Source: Defluviicoccus sp. (GTDB lineage: Bacteria > Pseudomonadota > Alphaproteobacteria > MPNO01). From it: a stretch of DNA of 34,298 nucleotides. The translations under genes were made by a program, and so were the position numbers. Under the pieces are notes generated by a model that saw nothing but the letters and a program-made list of their open reading frames with translations, was not told the DNA's origin and did no database searches. The stretch spans positions 1-34,298 of the forward strand of contig JAPPIT010000025.1 of assembly GCA_028820505.1 (NCBI GenBank), given 5' to 3'. Within the stretch, counting starts at the first letter, position 1. The number at the start of each line of letters is the position of its first letter. Positions 9,962 to 17,305 of this stretch are shown here, piece by piece.

Positions 9962-10903
9962 ATGGCCGGGGCCGGAAAGACAGCGGTTGCCGAGGACGGC
10001 GCGCATGAAGCGGATTGCGCGCTCCAGAGCATGACCGGATTCGCGCGCGCCGAGGGCGGGGACGGCGAGGTCCGGTGGAGTTGGGAAGTCAGAAGCGTCA
10101 ACGGGCGCAACCTCGACCTGCGGGTTCGCACGCCTCACGGGCACGACGCGCTGGAGCCGCGGGCGCGCGCGCTGGCCGCGGAACGGTTCAGCCGGGGCTC
10201 CCTGTCGCTCCATTTGACGATCGCGCAGGCCGGTCGCGCGCCCGAGATCCGCGTCAACGAGGACGTCCTCGAACGTCTGCTGGAGATCCATCGCTCGCTA
10301 CAGGATCGGCATGGCGCGCCGCCCGCGCGGCTCGAAGCGCTGATGGCGCTCCCGGGGGTTCTGGAGAGGATCGAGGCGGAGGAAACCGAAAGCGACCGCG
10401 ACCGCCGCCTCGGCGCGATCGCGGATACCCTTGCCGGCGCTCTCGACGGTCTCGCAGCGGCCCGTTACGAGGAAGGCGAACGGCTGGGATCGGTGGTCAA
10501 CCGTCAACTCGACGAGATCGATTCGCTCGCCCGAGCCGCCGCGGCCTCCGCCGCCGTCCAGCCCGAGCGGATCCGCGACCGGGTCCGCGACCAGATCGCC
10601 GCCCTCCTCGACGCCAAGCCCGCGGTCGCCGAGGACCGTCTCGCGCAGGAGGTGGCCTATCTCGCGGCGCGGGCCGACATTCGCGAGGAGATCGACCGGC
10701 TGACCGGCCATGTCGCGTCGGCGCGCGAACTCATGAGCGGCGGCGGACCGGTGGGCCGGCGGCTCGACTTCCTGTGCCAGGAATTCAACCGGGAAGCCAA
10801 CACCCTATGCTCGAAATCGACCGATATGGATCTCACGCGCATCGGGCTTGATCTGAAGGCGGCGGTCGAAGGCCTCCGCGAGCAGGTTCAGAACCTCGAA
10901 TAG
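9962..10903 (+). CDS. YicC family endoribonuclease
   Basis: YicC-family protein (313 aa from this start). E. coli YicC has been described as an endoribonuclease affecting small-RNA stability. The hallmark SMTGFAR lies near the N-terminus, followed by the EVRSVNGRNLDLRVR block. The C-terminal DUF1732 part contains GRRLDFLCQEFNREANTLCSKS. An ATG at 10031 would begin exactly at MTGFAR, but the family normally carries LQS or similar before it, which favours 9962. Neither has a clear ribosome site, and the -10 box 7 nt before 9962 suggests a leaderless mRNA. gmk follows after 1 bp. Confidence 0.93.
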   Translation: MAGAGKTAVAEDGAHEADCALQSMTGFARAEGGDGEVRWSWEVRSVNGRNLDLRVRTPHGHDALEPRARALAAERFSRGSLSLHLTIAQAGRAPEIRVNEDVLERLLEIHRSLQDRHGAPPARLEALMALPGVLERIEAEETESDRDRRLGAIADTLAGALDGLAAARYEEGERLGSVVNRQLDEIDSLARAAAASAAVQPERIRDRVRDQIAALLDAKPAVAEDRLAQEVAYLAARADIREEIDRLTGHVASARELMSGGGPVGRRLDFLCQEFNREANTLCSKSTDMDLTRIGLDLKAAVEGLREQVQNLE

Positions 10904-10904
10904 C

Positions 10905-11543
10905 ATGGGTACGGACGCAATTCGGCGCCGTGGCCTGATGCTGGTCCTGTCCTCCCCGTCAGGGGCCGGCAAGACCACCATTTCCCGGCTCTTGCTGGAG
11001 TCGGATGCGAGCCTCACGCTGTCGATCTCGGTGACCACGCGCCCCAAGCGGCCGGACGAGGTGGACCGGCGCGACTATTCGTTCCTGGACTCCGCCGCGT
11101 TCGAAAAGATGCGCGCCGCCGGCGATCTGCTGGAACACGCCAAGGTGTTCGGAAACGACTACGGGACGCCCCGGGCCCCGGTCGAAAAGGCGCTTCGCGA
11201 AGGTCGCGACGTCCTGTTCGACATCGACTGGCAGGGTGCGCGCCAGCTCAAGGGCAAGGCGCCAAAGGACGTCGTCAGCATCTTTATCCTGCCGCCATCG
11301 ACCGCCGAACTTCACGCACGTCTGCGGCGGCGCGCGCAGGATCCGGACGAGGTGGTGGCGCAGCGGATGAAGAGGGCGCCCGACGAGATCGCGCATTGGA
11401 GCGAGTTCGACTACGCGGTGGTCAACCGGGACATTCAGGAAAGCGTGTCGAGCGTGCGCTCGATCCTTACCGCGGAGCGGCTGCGCCGCCAGCGTCAGAT
11501 CGGCCTTCCCGATCTCGTCAAGCAGTTGAGCGAGGGGTTCTGA
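10905..11543 (+). CDS. gmk: Guanylate kinase
   Basis: Guanylate kinase (212 aa), which converts GMP to GDP with ATP. The P-loop SGAGKT is at residues 19-24, the GMP-binding region SVTTRPKRPDE follows, and the lid contains RLRRRAQD. The C-terminus is full length. It is coupled to yicC with a 1-bp gap, a common pair. Its last 26 bp overlap the 3' end of rsmA on the opposite strand. Confidence 0.97.
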   Translation: MGTDAIRRRGLMLVLSSPSGAGKTTISRLLLESDASLTLSISVTTRPKRPDEVDRRDYSFLDSAAFEKMRAAGDLLEHAKVFGNDYGTPRAPVEKALREGRDVLFDIDWQGARQLKGKAPKDVVSIFILPPSTAELHARLRRRAQDPDEVVAQRMKRAPDEIAHWSEFDYAVVNRDIQESVSSVRSILTAERLRRQRQIGLPDLVKQLSEGF

Positions 11544-12369
11544 GCTCCGCGAGACCGCGTGCGAGCGCGCAGAACGCCTCGGGCGGGAGCGTCTCGGCCC
11601 GCGCCGTCGGCGCTATTCCCGCCTGTGTCAGAAGCGCCTCCGGATTCTCGACCAGCCCGGCGAGAGCCGAGCGCAGCATCTTGCGCCTGCGTCCGAAGGC
11701 GGCGGCGGTGACCGCTTCCAGCGCGGCCATGTCCGCGGGCGCCAGAGGCGCGTCGCGCGGGACCAGATTGACGACGCTCGACGTGACCCTGGGCGGGGGC
11801 ACGAAAGCGGTCGGCGCGACGTCGAAGGCCCGCCTCGCTTCGCAGAGCCATTGCGCGACGACCGCGAGCCGGCCGTAGGCGCTCGTGCCCGGCGTCGCGA
11901 CGATGCGCTCCGCGACCTCCTTCTGGAACATGAGCGTCATCGCGGAGATCGAACCGACGTTCCGCAGCCAGCCGATCAGGAGCGGCGTGGCGACGTTGTA
12001 GGGCAGGTTGGCGACGATCGCGACCCGTCCGGCCCCGGCGAGCGCGGGGATGTCGACATCCAGCGCATCGCCGGCGACGACGTCGAGCCGGTTCCCGTGG
12101 CGCTCGGAAAGATCCGAAAGCGCGTCGATGCAGCGCGGATCGCGCTCGATCGCGATCACGCGCGCCGCGCCGGTTTCGAGGAGGGCGCGGGTTAGGCCGC
12201 CCGGACCCGGTCCGATCTCGACCACGGTCTTCCCGCCAAGATCGCCCGCGGCCCGGACGATGCGCCGGGAAAGGTTGAGGTCGAGGAGGAAGTGCTGGCC
12301 GAGCTGCCGTCTCGCGCGAATCCCGTATCGGGCGATGACCTCGCGCAGCGGCGGCAGGGCGTCAGGCAA
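11518..12369 (-). CDS. rsmA: 16S rRNA dimethyladenosine transferase
   Basis: RsmA/KsgA (283 aa) dimethylates two adjacent adenines near the 3' end of 16S rRNA during 30S maturation. The substrate-facing QLGQHFLLD, the SAM-binding EIGPGPGGLT (51-60) and the catalytic NLPY (121-124) are intact. TTG at 12369 is chosen as start: it overlaps the pdxA stop by 8 nt and places LPPLREVIARYG at the normal N-terminus. An ATG at 12429 would overlap pdxA more deeply and add a basic, non-conserved extension. The 3' end overlaps gmk convergently. Confidence 0.95.
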   Translation of the reverse strand: MPDALPPLREVIARYGIRARRQLGQHFLLDLNLSRRIVRAAGDLGGKTVVEIGPGPGGLTRALLETGAARVIAIERDPRCIDALSDLSERHGNRLDVVAGDALDVDIPALAGAGRVAIVANLPYNVATPLLIGWLRNVGSISAMTLMFQKEVAERIVATPGTSAYGRLAVVAQWLCEARRAFDVAPTAFVPPPRVTSSVVNLVPRDAPLAPADMAALEAVTAAAFGRRRKMLRSALAGLVENPEALLTQAGIAPTARAETLPPEAFCALARGLAELRTPRSTA

Positions 12370-13375
12370 GGGCGTCCGGCGTCCCAGCCCGCGTGCCCGC
12401 CATCGTCGCGGCGAGGCGCAAGGCGGCAATCAGGCTGTCCGGCCGGGCCGCGCCCTTTCCCGCGATGTCGTAGCCAGTGCCATGATCGGGGGAGGTCCGG
12501 ACGATGGGAAGGCCGAGCGTCACGTTGACCCCGCCGAAGAAATCGAGCGTCTTGATCGGGATCAGCGCCTGATCGTGATACATGCATAGCGCCGCGTCGT
12601 AGTCCCGGCGCGCTCCCTCGTGAAACAGCGTATCCGCGGGGGACGGTCCTTCGACTTGGATTCCGTCCCGGCGCAGGATGTCGATGGCGGGTTCGACGAT
12701 CTCGATCTCCTCGCGCCCCAGATGTCCGCTCTCGCCGGCATGAGGGTTGAGACCCGCCACGGCGAGCCTCGGCGCGCGGATCCCGAAATCGCGCGCGAGC
12801 CCCGCCGCCGCGGTGCGTCCGCAATGCACGATCGCATCGACGGTGAGGGCCTTCGCAGCCTCCGCCAGCGGCAGGTGGACGGTTACCGGAACGACGCGCA
12901 GCGTGTCGCAGACGAGCATCATCGCGGGCGGCGACACGCTGCCGCAGAGATCCGCGAGATACTCGGTGTGGCCCGGATGCCGGAAGCCGCACCGGTAAAG
13001 GACGGCCTTGCCGATCGGGTTGGTGACGACCGCGGCGGCTTCGCCGGAGCCGGCCAGCTCCACCGCCCGATCGATCGCCTCGATGGTGGCGGGTCCGTTC
13101 GAGGGATCCGGCTTGCCGCAGACCACGGGCGCGGAAAGGGCGATCGGCAGTACCGGGAACGAATCCATGAAGACGTCCGCCGCCTCGGCCGGCCCGGACA
13201 CGGTTTCCACCGGTACGTTGAGACCGAGCGTCGCGGCCAGGGCGTCGACGTGATCCCGCCCCCCGAGATAGACGAAGGGCGGGACGGCCGCTTCGCGCCG
13301 TCGAACCCAGGTTTCCAGCGCGATCTCGGGGCCGATTCCCGCGCTGTCTCCCATGGTCAGGGCTATGGCGCGCAT
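12362..13375 (-). CDS. pdxA: 4-hydroxythreonine-4-phosphate dehydrogenase
   Basis: PdxA (337 aa), a metal-dependent NAD(P) oxidoreductase of the DXP-dependent pyridoxal phosphate pathway. Motifs seen are MGDSAGIGPEI at the N-terminus, the metal histidine in HPGHTEYLA, GLNPHAGE, MYHDQALIP and TSPDHGTGYD. It lies 15 bp after surA and overlaps rsmA, the common surA-pdxA-rsmA operon. Confidence 0.97.
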   Translation of the reverse strand: MRAIALTMGDSAGIGPEIALETWVRRREAAVPPFVYLGGRDHVDALAATLGLNVPVETVSGPAEAADVFMDSFPVLPIALSAPVVCGKPDPSNGPATIEAIDRAVELAGSGEAAAVVTNPIGKAVLYRCGFRHPGHTEYLADLCGSVSPPAMMLVCDTLRVVPVTVHLPLAEAAKALTVDAIVHCGRTAAAGLARDFGIRAPRLAVAGLNPHAGESGHLGREEIEIVEPAIDILRRDGIQVEGPSPADTLFHEGARRDYDAALCMYHDQALIPIKTLDFFGGVNVTLGLPIVRTSPDHGTGYDIAGKGAARPDSLIAALRLAATMAGTRAGTPDALA

Positions 13376-13390: not shown

Positions 13391-14653
13391 CTAGAGGCGT
13401 ACATCGACGATCGCGGCGCTTCGCAAATCCCTGAGATAGCGTTGCACCGAAAGATCGAGCCGCTGCAGACGGAGCTGCTCCGTCACCGTTTCCCGGCTGG
13501 GCAGGTTCGCCTTGGGGAGGGTACGGCCGCAAACCACCATCAGCGCGATTCCTCCCGGGGTCAGGACCGGCTGGCCGGCTTTCCCGACCGCTACGCCGGC
13601 GACGCTTCTCCGAACCTCCGCCGACAGGTCGGTCAGCTTGACCTTGCCCAGATCCTGCGGCGCCTCCGCGCCCAGCCGCCGGGCCGCGTCGGACAGATCT
13701 TCGCAGCCCTCGATGGCATTGGCTTCCGACCTCGCGGCGTCGACGCGGGTTCGCATGCCGGCGGGATCCTCGCCGTCCGGGACGGGAAGGAATATCTGCT
13801 TGAGGTCGAGTTCCGCCAGGTCCGGATCGGGGGTCGCGATCCTGCGCTTGCCGGCCAGCGTCACGATCCGGAATCCGGACACGGTGCGAATCGGGCCGGC
13901 CACCTCGCCCGGCGAAAGACGGTCCGCCGCCGCCGCGACCTCCGGATCGAGCTGCGAGCGCGGGGTCCATCCGAGATCGCCGCCGACCGCGGCCGTCGCG
14001 GATTGCGAGAACTGGCGGGCGAGCGCGCTGAACCGGGCGCCCCCGCGAATCTGCTCCACCAGACGCTCGGCGGTCTCGCGGATCGAGGGTTCCTCGTCCG
14101 GACCGTTGACCGAAAGGAATATTTCCCCGAGGCGGTATGTGCGCTCGCCCTCGGCCGCCTTGAGCCGCGCGAAAATCTCGTCGACCTCTTCGGCGCCGAT
14201 ATCGATTCTCGGCGCCAGCCGGCGGCTCACCAGTTTGGACCAGGCGATTTCGCTCCTCATCTGGGCGCGGAGCGAATCGTAGCTCACGCCGTTGCGTTGG
14301 AATATGGAGGGGAGGCTTCCCGGCTGCATTCCATTGCGCTTCTCGATGCTCGAAACGCCCCGCCCGATATCGTCTTCGGAGACCGTTACGTTCCACTTTT
14401 TCGCTTCCTGAAGCTGGAGGCGCTCGTCGATCAGCCTTCGCAGCACCTGTCCCGCGACCCGCTGCCGTGCGTTCGCGGTATCGTCGATCCCGCTGGAAAA
14501 AAGGACCAGGCGTATGCGCTGCCTCAGATCCCGGAGGGAGATGACCTCGTCGTTGACGATCGCGGCGATCCTTTGTTCGGCCTGCGAGAGCGCCGGCGCG
14601 GGTGCCGCCAGGACGGCCGCGACAAGGAGGGCAAAGAACGGGCGCATCGACAT
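13391..14653 (-). CDS. surA: SurA-like periplasmic peptidyl-prolyl isomerase
   Basis: SurA-type chaperone (420 aa) that assists outer-membrane protein folding in the periplasm. A Sec signal peptide spans roughly residues 1-24 (hydrophobic core FFALLVAAVLAAPAPALS). A SurA N-terminal chaperone domain (IAAIVNDEVISLRDLRQRI) follows, then a parvulin domain with EIFLSV, ARQFSQSATAAVGGDLGW and GPIRTVSGFRIV, then a C-terminal helix region. ATG 14653 is used; ATG 14647 or TTG 14659 are also possible. A good promoter lies upstream. In related genomes lptD normally lies upstream of surA and is absent here. Confidence 0.93.
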   Translation of the reverse strand: MSMRPFFALLVAAVLAAPAPALSQAEQRIAAIVNDEVISLRDLRQRIRLVLFSSGIDDTANARQRVAGQVLRRLIDERLQLQEAKKWNVTVSEDDIGRGVSSIEKRNGMQPGSLPSIFQRNGVSYDSLRAQMRSEIAWSKLVSRRLAPRIDIGAEEVDEIFARLKAAEGERTYRLGEIFLSVNGPDEEPSIRETAERLVEQIRGGARFSALARQFSQSATAAVGGDLGWTPRSQLDPEVAAAADRLSPGEVAGPIRTVSGFRIVTLAGKRRIATPDPDLAELDLKQIFLPVPDGEDPAGMRTRVDAARSEANAIEGCEDLSDAARRLGAEAPQDLGKVKLTDLSAEVRRSVAGVAVGKAGQPVLTPGGIALMVVCGRTLPKANLPSRETVTEQLRLQRLDLSVQRYLRDLRSAAIVDVRL

Positions 14654-14704
14654 GTTCAAGGCGACCTACTCCGGCCGACGGTTTCGCCGGCTCGACTGCC
14701 CGGG

Positions 14705-14734
14705 TTTATACCGCCTGGGCCGAAACCCTGTCCA
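14705..14734 (-). promoter_or_regulatory. Predicted promoter of surA-pdxA-rsmA
   Basis: On the minus strand, -35 TGGACA (5 of 6 consensus, 14729-14734), an 18-nt spacer and -10 TATAAA (14705-14710). The leader would be about 45 nt. A plus-strand TTGACA (14735-14740) abuts the -35 but has no good -10 toward pepA. Confidence 0.6.
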
Positions 14735-14857
14735 TTTGACAGAAAGGGCAGGCCGCGCAGGGGTTGGAGTCCGCCGCCGGTTGTGGCGGCGCGGCGGCCT
14801 TCTTAAGTTTGACCCGCCGACGGCGCCCGTCCGAATCCGGAAATCAGGAGACCGCCC

Positions 14858-16357
14858 ATGAAGATCAGCTTCGCAGCCCCCAGACTTCCTCGAAGCGGCG
14901 CGCTCGCGCTCGGCGTCCACGATGGCGGCGATCTCGCCGCGACGGCGACGGAGGTGGACGCGGCAGCCGGCGGCGCCCTGTCGCGGGCGGTCGGGTCCAG
15001 CCGTTTCAGCGGCAAGAGCAACCAGACGCTGATCCTCAACGCGCCCGCCGGCGTGGCCGCGAGCCGTGTGGTGCTGGTGGGGCTCGGAAAGGCCGCCGAT
15101 TTCGATGCCCGCGCCGCGCAGAGCATGGGCGGAACGATCGTTTCCACGCTCGAAAAAAGCGGAGACAGCGCGGTCACGATAGCGGTCGATGCGACGGACG
15201 GGGCGCCCGTTTCGCCCGCCGTCATGGCGGCCAATGTCGGTTTCGGCGCGTTGCTGCGCGGCTATCGGTTCGACAAGTACCGCACGAAGGAAAAACCGGA
15301 CGACAAGCCGAGCCTGAACCGGATAACCGTTGCCACGCAGGTCCATGCGCGGGCGCGCGGCGAATTCCGGCCGCTCGCCGAGGTCGCGGAGGGGGTCTTC
15401 CTGACCCGCGACCTCGTCTCCGAGCCCGCCAACGTGATTTTCCCCGCGAGCCTCGCGGAACGGGCCAAGTCCCTGACCGAGCTCGGGGTAACGGTCGAAA
15501 TCCTCGACGAAAAGCGGATGGCAAAACTCGGGATGGGTGCGCTTCTCGGCGTCGCCCAGGGAAGCGCCAACGCGCCCAAGCTGGTGACGATGCGCTGGAA
15601 CGGCGCGCCCAGAGCGAAGGACAAGAGGCCGATCGCCTTCGTCGGCAAGGGCGTCACGTTCGATACCGGGGGCATTTCCATCAAGCCGTCCGGCGGCATG
15701 GAAGACATGAAATGGGATATGGGCGGTGCCGGCGTCGTGATCGGGCTCATGCGCGCTCTCGCCGGGCGCAAGGCCAGGGTCAACGCGGTCGGCATGATCG
15801 GCTTGGTGGAGAACATGCCGTCGGCCACCGCGCAGCGGCCCGGCGACGTGGTGACGTCGATGTCCGGCCAGACGGTCGAGGTCATCAACACCGACGCCGA
15901 GGGGCGCCTCGTGCTGTGCGATGCGTTCTGGTACTGCCAGGAGAAATACAGCCCGCGGGCCATCGTCGATCTGGCGACGCTGACCGGCGCGATCATCGTC
16001 TCGCTCGGACATGAGAATGCGGGGCTCTTCGCCAATGACGACACGTTGGCGGATCGGCTGATCGCCGCGGGCGGCGCGGTCGGCGAATCGGTGTGGCGGA
16101 TGCCGCTCGGCGATGCCTACGACCGGCAAATCGATTCCGACATCGCCGACATGAAGAATGTCGGCGGACGCGACGCGGGTTCCATCACCGCCGCCCAGTT
16201 TCTCCAGCGCTTCATCAAGGAGGGGACGCCCTGGGCTCATCTCGACATCGCCGGCGTGACATGGTCGAAGAAGAGTTCCGCGACCGTCCCCAAGGGCGGA
16301 ACCGGGTTCGGCGTGCGGCTGCTCGACCGGCTGGTGCGGGATCATTACGAGGGCTGA
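14858..16357 (+). CDS. pepA: Leucyl aminopeptidase
   Basis: Cytosolic M17 leucyl aminopeptidase (499 aa), a two-metal hexameric exopeptidase. The metal and catalytic residues are visible: Lys264 and Asp269 in VGKGVTFDTGG, Lys276, Asp287, and the signature NTDAEGR with Asp346, Glu348 and Arg350. An AGGAG ribosome site precedes the ATG. It is followed after 7 bp by holC, a typical pairing. In related bacteria it is divergent from lptF; here it is divergent from surA. Confidence 0.97.
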   Translation: MKISFAAPRLPRSGALALGVHDGGDLAATATEVDAAAGGALSRAVGSSRFSGKSNQTLILNAPAGVAASRVVLVGLGKAADFDARAAQSMGGTIVSTLEKSGDSAVTIAVDATDGAPVSPAVMAANVGFGALLRGYRFDKYRTKEKPDDKPSLNRITVATQVHARARGEFRPLAEVAEGVFLTRDLVSEPANVIFPASLAERAKSLTELGVTVEILDEKRMAKLGMGALLGVAQGSANAPKLVTMRWNGAPRAKDKRPIAFVGKGVTFDTGGISIKPSGGMEDMKWDMGGAGVVIGLMRALAGRKARVNAVGMIGLVENMPSATAQRPGDVVTSMSGQTVEVINTDAEGRLVLCDAFWYCQEKYSPRAIVDLATLTGAIIVSLGHENAGLFANDDTLADRLIAAGGAVGESVWRMPLGDAYDRQIDSDIADMKNVGGRDAGSITAAQFLQRFIKEGTPWAHLDIAGVTWSKKSSATVPKGGTGFGVRLLDRLVRDHYEG

Positions 16358-16364
16358 GCCCGCA

Positions 16365-16817
16365 GTGACCGATATCGGCTTCTACCATCTGACCCGGAGC
16401 ACGCTCGAGCAGGCCTTGCCCAGGCTGCTGGAAAAGGCCCATGCGAGCGGCGCGCGCACCGTCGTCATGACGGGTTCGGAAGAAAGGACGAAGGCGCTCG
16501 ACACGATCCTCTGGACCTATGACCAGAACGCGTTTCTCCCGCACGGCACCGCGCGCGACGGCAACCCGGGGGAACAGCCCATCTGGATCACCCATGAGGA
16601 CGAGAATCCCAACGGCGCTGATATTCTCGTGCTCACCGACGGGGCGGTGTCCGGCCGCGTCGCCGACTTCGCCCGCTGTCTGGAGATGTTCGACGGCAAC
16701 GACGACGATGCGGTGTCGAAGGCGCGCGAACGCTGGAAAGCCTATTCGACGGCGGGCCACAGCCTGACCTACTGGCAGCAATCGCCGGCCGGCCGCTGGG
16801 AGGAGAAGGCCGGGTAG
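16365..16817 (+). CDS. holC: DNA polymerase III chi subunit
   Basis: HolC (150 aa), the clamp-loader accessory subunit that bridges the polymerase III holoenzyme to SSB. Family features are [21 protein letters not shown], the [12 protein letters not shown] block, [19 protein letters not shown], and the end [16 protein letters not shown]. The start codon is GTG at 16365, 7 bp after pepA, so it is probably in the same transcript. Confidence 0.94.
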
Positions 16818-16882: not shown

Positions 16883-17305
16883 ATGGCCGTTGAACGGACG
16901 CTATCGATCATCAAGCCCGACGCCACGCGGCGCAATCTGACGGGACAGATCAATGCCCGGCTCGAGGAGGCCGGGCTCAGGATCGTCGCGCAGCGGCGGG
17001 TCCGGCTGACGCTGGAGCAGGCGCGGCAGTTTTACGCCGTTCACGCAAGCCGTGCCTTCTTCGACGATTTGTGCAAGTTCATGGTTTCCGGCCCGGTCGT
17101 GGCTCAGGTCCTCGAAGGAGAGGACGCGATCGCCAGGAACCGGGACGCGATGGGCGCGACCAATCCGGCGAACGCCGCGGACGGCACCATCCGCAAGGCG
17201 TTCGGCGAATCGATCGAGGCCAATTCGGTGCACGGCTCCGATTCGGCGGAGACCGCGGCTACGGAAATCGCGTTCTTCTTTTCCGAACGCGATATCGTCG
17301 GATAA
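16883..17305 (+). CDS. ndk: Nucleoside diphosphate kinase
   Basis: Ndk (140 aa) balances nucleoside triphosphate pools by a phosphohistidine ping-pong mechanism. It begins with [11 protein letters not shown], contains the [15 protein letters not shown] loop, and has the active-site His117 in NSVHGSDS. Length and motifs are complete. It has its own promoter and is convergent with the small oxidase-subunit gene 15 bp downstream. Confidence 0.98.

Follow-up and report, generated by a model that had tools for sequence, protein, structure and literature searches.

In most of the sampled members of the order to which the genome studied here belongs, pepA stands divergent from the run lptF-lptG-lptD-surA-pdxA-rsmA, the arrangement that a preliminary description of this locus had given as usual. 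Outside the genus, lptF adjoins pepA divergently and within a few kilobases in 20 of 22 order genomes; one of the remaining two carries lptF and pepA on different contigs and the other is incomplete, with neither gene found. lptG-lptD-surA-pdxA-rsmA then follow in the order genomes in which the region could be fully read, except in the sister genus (G005). A search of the literature on this gene order found nothing to the point. The other system to which the locus can be compared is the imuA-imuB-dnaE2 SOS mutagenesis cassette; the alphaproteobacterial LexA motif is GTTC-N7-GTTC (PMC3323433, PMC8565304).

The window, that is, the whole stretch of 34,298 nucleotides that was analysed, comes from an uncultured alphaproteobacterial genus. 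It resembles the alphaproteobacterial neighbourhood seen in G007, G009, G027, G029 and G035 in its genes, in the divergent pepA and in the order surA-pdxA-rsmA, but in the genus the lptFGD block is cut out of this run and located elsewhere, and surA abuts pepA (Table 1). Gene calls, together with tblastn and tblastx searches of the gap using the moved LptF, LptG and LptD as well as the lptF, lptG and lptD of relatives, bore out the earlier observation that surA and pepA are divergent, 204 bp apart and free of any lpt remnant between them; these searches returned only short matches at chance level. The most likely start of surA is the ATG at 14653, the longest frame beginning at an in-frame TTG at 14659, and pepA shows 86-94% identity within the genus. 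The gap holds a conserved stretch, AAACCCTGTCCATTTG, and a shared GTTTATA (TATAAAC on the minus strand), which by their sequence would fit divergent promoters. We infer that lptF-lptG-lptD once occupied the surA-pepA interval and that this was the ancestral order.

Table 1. Coordinates of the surA-pepA junction and its flanks in the window, and of the lpt locus beside imuA in the same genome.
Feature	Coordinates	Strand	Evidence and remarks
rsmA (16S rRNA dimethyladenosine transferase)	11518..12429	-	Pfam RrnaAD 1.5e-49; after pdxA as in relatives (synteny)
pdxA	12362..13375	-	Pfam PdxA 7.7e-103; after surA as in relatives (synteny)
surA (periplasmic chaperone, peptidyl-prolyl isomerase)	13391..14653	-	Pfam SurA_N 5.1e-20, Rotamase 3.3e-21
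surA-pepA divergent intergenic region	14654..14857	.	exactly 204 bp
pepA (leucyl aminopeptidase, M17)	14858..16357	+	Pfam Peptidase_M17 7.1e-127, both Peptidase_M17 domains
holC (DNA polymerase III chi)	16365..16817	+	Pfam DNA_pol3_chi 2.3e-39; conserved flank (synteny)
ndk	16883..17305	+	Pfam NDK 4.4e-54; conserved flank (synteny)
imuA-lptF shared region	G000:C130:35655-35828 (L003:5656-5829)		174 bp; conserved LexA-type box
lptF-lptG-lptD block	G000:C130:35829-40214 (L003:5830-10215)		fast-stem block

The genes absent from the gap, which serve the transport of lipopolysaccharide (LPS) to the cell surface, were located in this genome on a different contig, C130, where lptF-lptG-lptD lie intact and in that order, with full Pfam domains and no stops. 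The whole-genome count gave exactly two matches to the LptF/LptG family and one to LptD, all on C130, and the whole-genome search found no second copy or remnant of lptF, lptG or lptD anywhere in the genome of the window. Both LptF/LptG permease proteins match PF03739 at full length (1.3e-61 and 3.3e-59), and LptD matches PF04453 (5.6e-61); in LptD the cysteine columns 150, 153 and 679 are retained in every compared sequence that covers them, as are, in the genus, most of the columns conserved outside it. lptA and lptC are adjacent on C217 (PF03968, 2.4e-24, and PF06835, 1.6e-09), and directly after lptA, in the LptB position, comes an ABC ATPase (ABC_tran protein) which, going by that position, is probably LptB. 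LpxC was located on C186 (PF03331, 2.1e-103) and LpxD on C36 (PF04613, 6.1e-18). Of the homologues for which the preliminary description had proposed a genome search, LptD, LptF, LptG, LptA, LpxC and LpxD are present. It had offered two options, that the LPS export genes had moved or that LPS export had been lost or altered; the former holds, given the intact lptFGD on C130, which reduces the case to a rearrangement, and the latter is refuted, as a loss, by the presence of the Lpt proteins and of LpxC and LpxD.

On C130 lptFGD stands back to back with imuA-imuB-dnaE2, and its far end abuts an SDR gene followed by a gene of the dienelactone-hydrolase family. The names imuA and dnaE2 were given on the basis of gene position, of the sequence and of what is established about the cassette. 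The order imuA<>lptF-lptG-lptD is repeated in G001-G004, in which lptF and pepA are on different contigs. Each of the five genomes sampled from the genus, representing five species, has the surA-pepA junction, with a length between 204 and about 260 bp, as well as lptFGD beside imuA, and none of the five has lptF-lptG-lptD between pepA and surA; the possibility, raised beforehand, that close relatives would all show this order turned out to be true within the genus. In the sequence available, imuA has no lpt neighbour in six other genomes (G005, G007, G009, G014, G015 and G016), nor does the SDR-dienelactone-hydrolase pair of G018. The SDR gene after lptD varies within the genus, being absent in G001 and cut to a short match in G004 (L073 about 10225-10421; L076 about 10233-10594).

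The change in gene order is an ordinary one, and genus-wide. We are confident that the lptFGD block was relocated, not lost, through a rearrangement in the common ancestor of the genus. In that ancestor the block would have left the pepA-surA interval and inserted between imuA, of the imuA-imuB-dnaE2 cassette, and the SDR/dienelactone-hydrolase gene pair, presumably all at once and through ordinary recombination within the genome. LPS export itself would be unchanged in the genus. A loss or alteration of LPS export in the lineage is suggested by the absence of the genes at their expected site and by nothing else, and there is practically no chance that it occurred: the whole-genome searches, with their intact lptFGD, lptC, lptA, LpxC and LpxD and a likely LptB, refute a loss, and the retention in LptD of its conserved cysteine columns and of most columns conserved outside the genus also stands against this explanation. 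A false lead is thereby removed, since the lineage keeps its LPS export genes, and the case is a reminder that a missing neighbour gene calls for a check of the whole genome. A junction or an lpt contig derived from another organism through faulty assembly or binning deserves equally little credence. The genomes are draft MAGs in which the relocation sites lie on separate contigs, and that of the window comprises 228 contigs with 3.6% estimated contamination; yet both arrangements appear in five separate genomes of the genus, among which identity is 78-94% for LptF and LptG and 65-84% for LptD, and the recurrence of the surA-pepA junction in every one of them shows that assembly did not create it. 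As to what might have driven the move, no insertion element was found at the junctions, the three junctions share no word longer than 9 bp, neither the window nor the scanned loci contain a tRNA, and the repeats within the moved block and on its margins are all weak; on these grounds we rejected the idea that a mobile element or repeat was the driving agent.

The origin of the moved genes was addressed with trees. In that of LptG, made with the best matches from 385 genomes of the class, the genus and its order form one side of a branch with a support of 100, against 36 class rows, and the concatenated LptF+G+D tree likewise recovers the order clade with a support of 100. LptG alone and the three Lpt proteins together are placed inside the organism's order, and the LptF-only and LptD-only trees, which have open or long branches, agree in outline. 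This placement of the moved proteins speaks against another order as their source, and the LptG, concatenated and single-protein trees alike disfavour a transfer of lptFGD from another order or class. A transfer within the order would be a different matter: a foreign lptFGD could have inserted next to imuA, followed by deletion of the native block from the pepA-surA interval. The new location agrees with such a displacement, and so does the identity of the Lpt proteins of the genus to those of order members (about 40-51%), mostly below that found among the other members. The stem of the genus agrees with it as well. On a shared topology this stem measures 0.79 changes per site for LptF+G+D against 0.35 for SurA+PepA+PdxA+RsmA, the proteins of the former neighbours, a ratio of 2.28 (about 2.3-fold); other branches of similar length gave ratios of 0.77 to 1.48, but, short branches being noisy, the stem ratio deviates by only 1.9 standard deviations in the full set of 37 branches. 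Inside the genus, both protein sets evolve at an equal pace (sums of 0.61 and 0.62), so that the burst is old and over. The unusually long stem of the moved proteins is a point against relocation, and within-order transfer from an unsampled source could produce it too. Even so, we consider the displacement unlikely: the nearest relatives are of the organism's own family or order, with LptG showing 51% identity to the sister genus and no more than 48% to any of the searched class genomes, the likelihood of the LptG tree improves when the genus is constrained with this sister genus, and no donor was found. Under relocation, the explanation that we retain, the locus is a clean example of the movement of a whole LPS-export operon, and one that can be placed on the stem of a single genus.

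The new position places lptF next to the region upstream of imuA. Between the two genes all five genomes of the genus carry GTTC-N7-(A/G)T(T/C)C-N7-GTTC or a near match, and two of them the exact GTTC-N7-GTTC, which shuffled sequence matches in about 0.6% of cases. This LexA-type box lies ~125 bp from lptF. It belongs to imuA, because six relatives in which lptF is not next to imuA carry a like box upstream of that gene; the same six relatives rule out that it arrived with lptF as its control site. The genus therefore resembles these relatives in having a normal cassette with its LexA-type box, and differs in the divergent lptF neighbour, which among the genomes checked is found only here. A conserved GCGAATATGCTATAG nearer lptF could be the lptF promoter, judging from the sequence. 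With lptFGD set divergently against a LexA-controlled promoter, DNA damage might now alter LPS transport in the genus, and the move would have coincided with the burst of change in LptF, LptG and LptD. We hold this to be very improbable; if it were true, outer-membrane building would be tied to the SOS response.

Breaks of the pepA-surA neighbourhood are found in other Alphaproteobacteria too. As in the genus, part of the lpt set is gone from the interval in G005, G037, G038, G040, Azospirillum and Skermanella. The sister genus G005 still has lptF-lptG between pepA and surA, its lptD being alone on another contig; lptD also lies outside the neighbourhood, elsewhere in the genome, in G037 and G040, and lptFG lies elsewhere in G038, a genome from another family that is on a single contig. 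Of 80 named pepA loci, the ones from Azospirillum, Skermanella and Arenibaculum have no lptD in the interval, and in many more the available upstream stretch contains none of the genes, although some of these stretches are truncated by a contig end. The direct surA-pepA junction occurs among the 80 only at L118, the one locus from this genus, and among all the loci examined only in this genus. Those lineages split off lptD alone or lptFG alone, whereas the genus moved lptF-lptG-lptD together. The lptD of G005 (L077 = G005:C195; L248 = G005:C205) is situated between carbamoyltransferase-like and saccharopine-dehydrogenase-like frames, named by reading the sequence. A better candidate for a real loss of LPS export is G032, a genome of the same class (1.7 Mb, 99% complete) in which PepA is present but searches for LptF/LptG and LptD gave no match. 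Another member of the order, G022, carries two LptF/LptG pairs (G022:C22:10187-12432 and G022:C57:1825-4017), which reflect either contamination (6%) or a true duplication.
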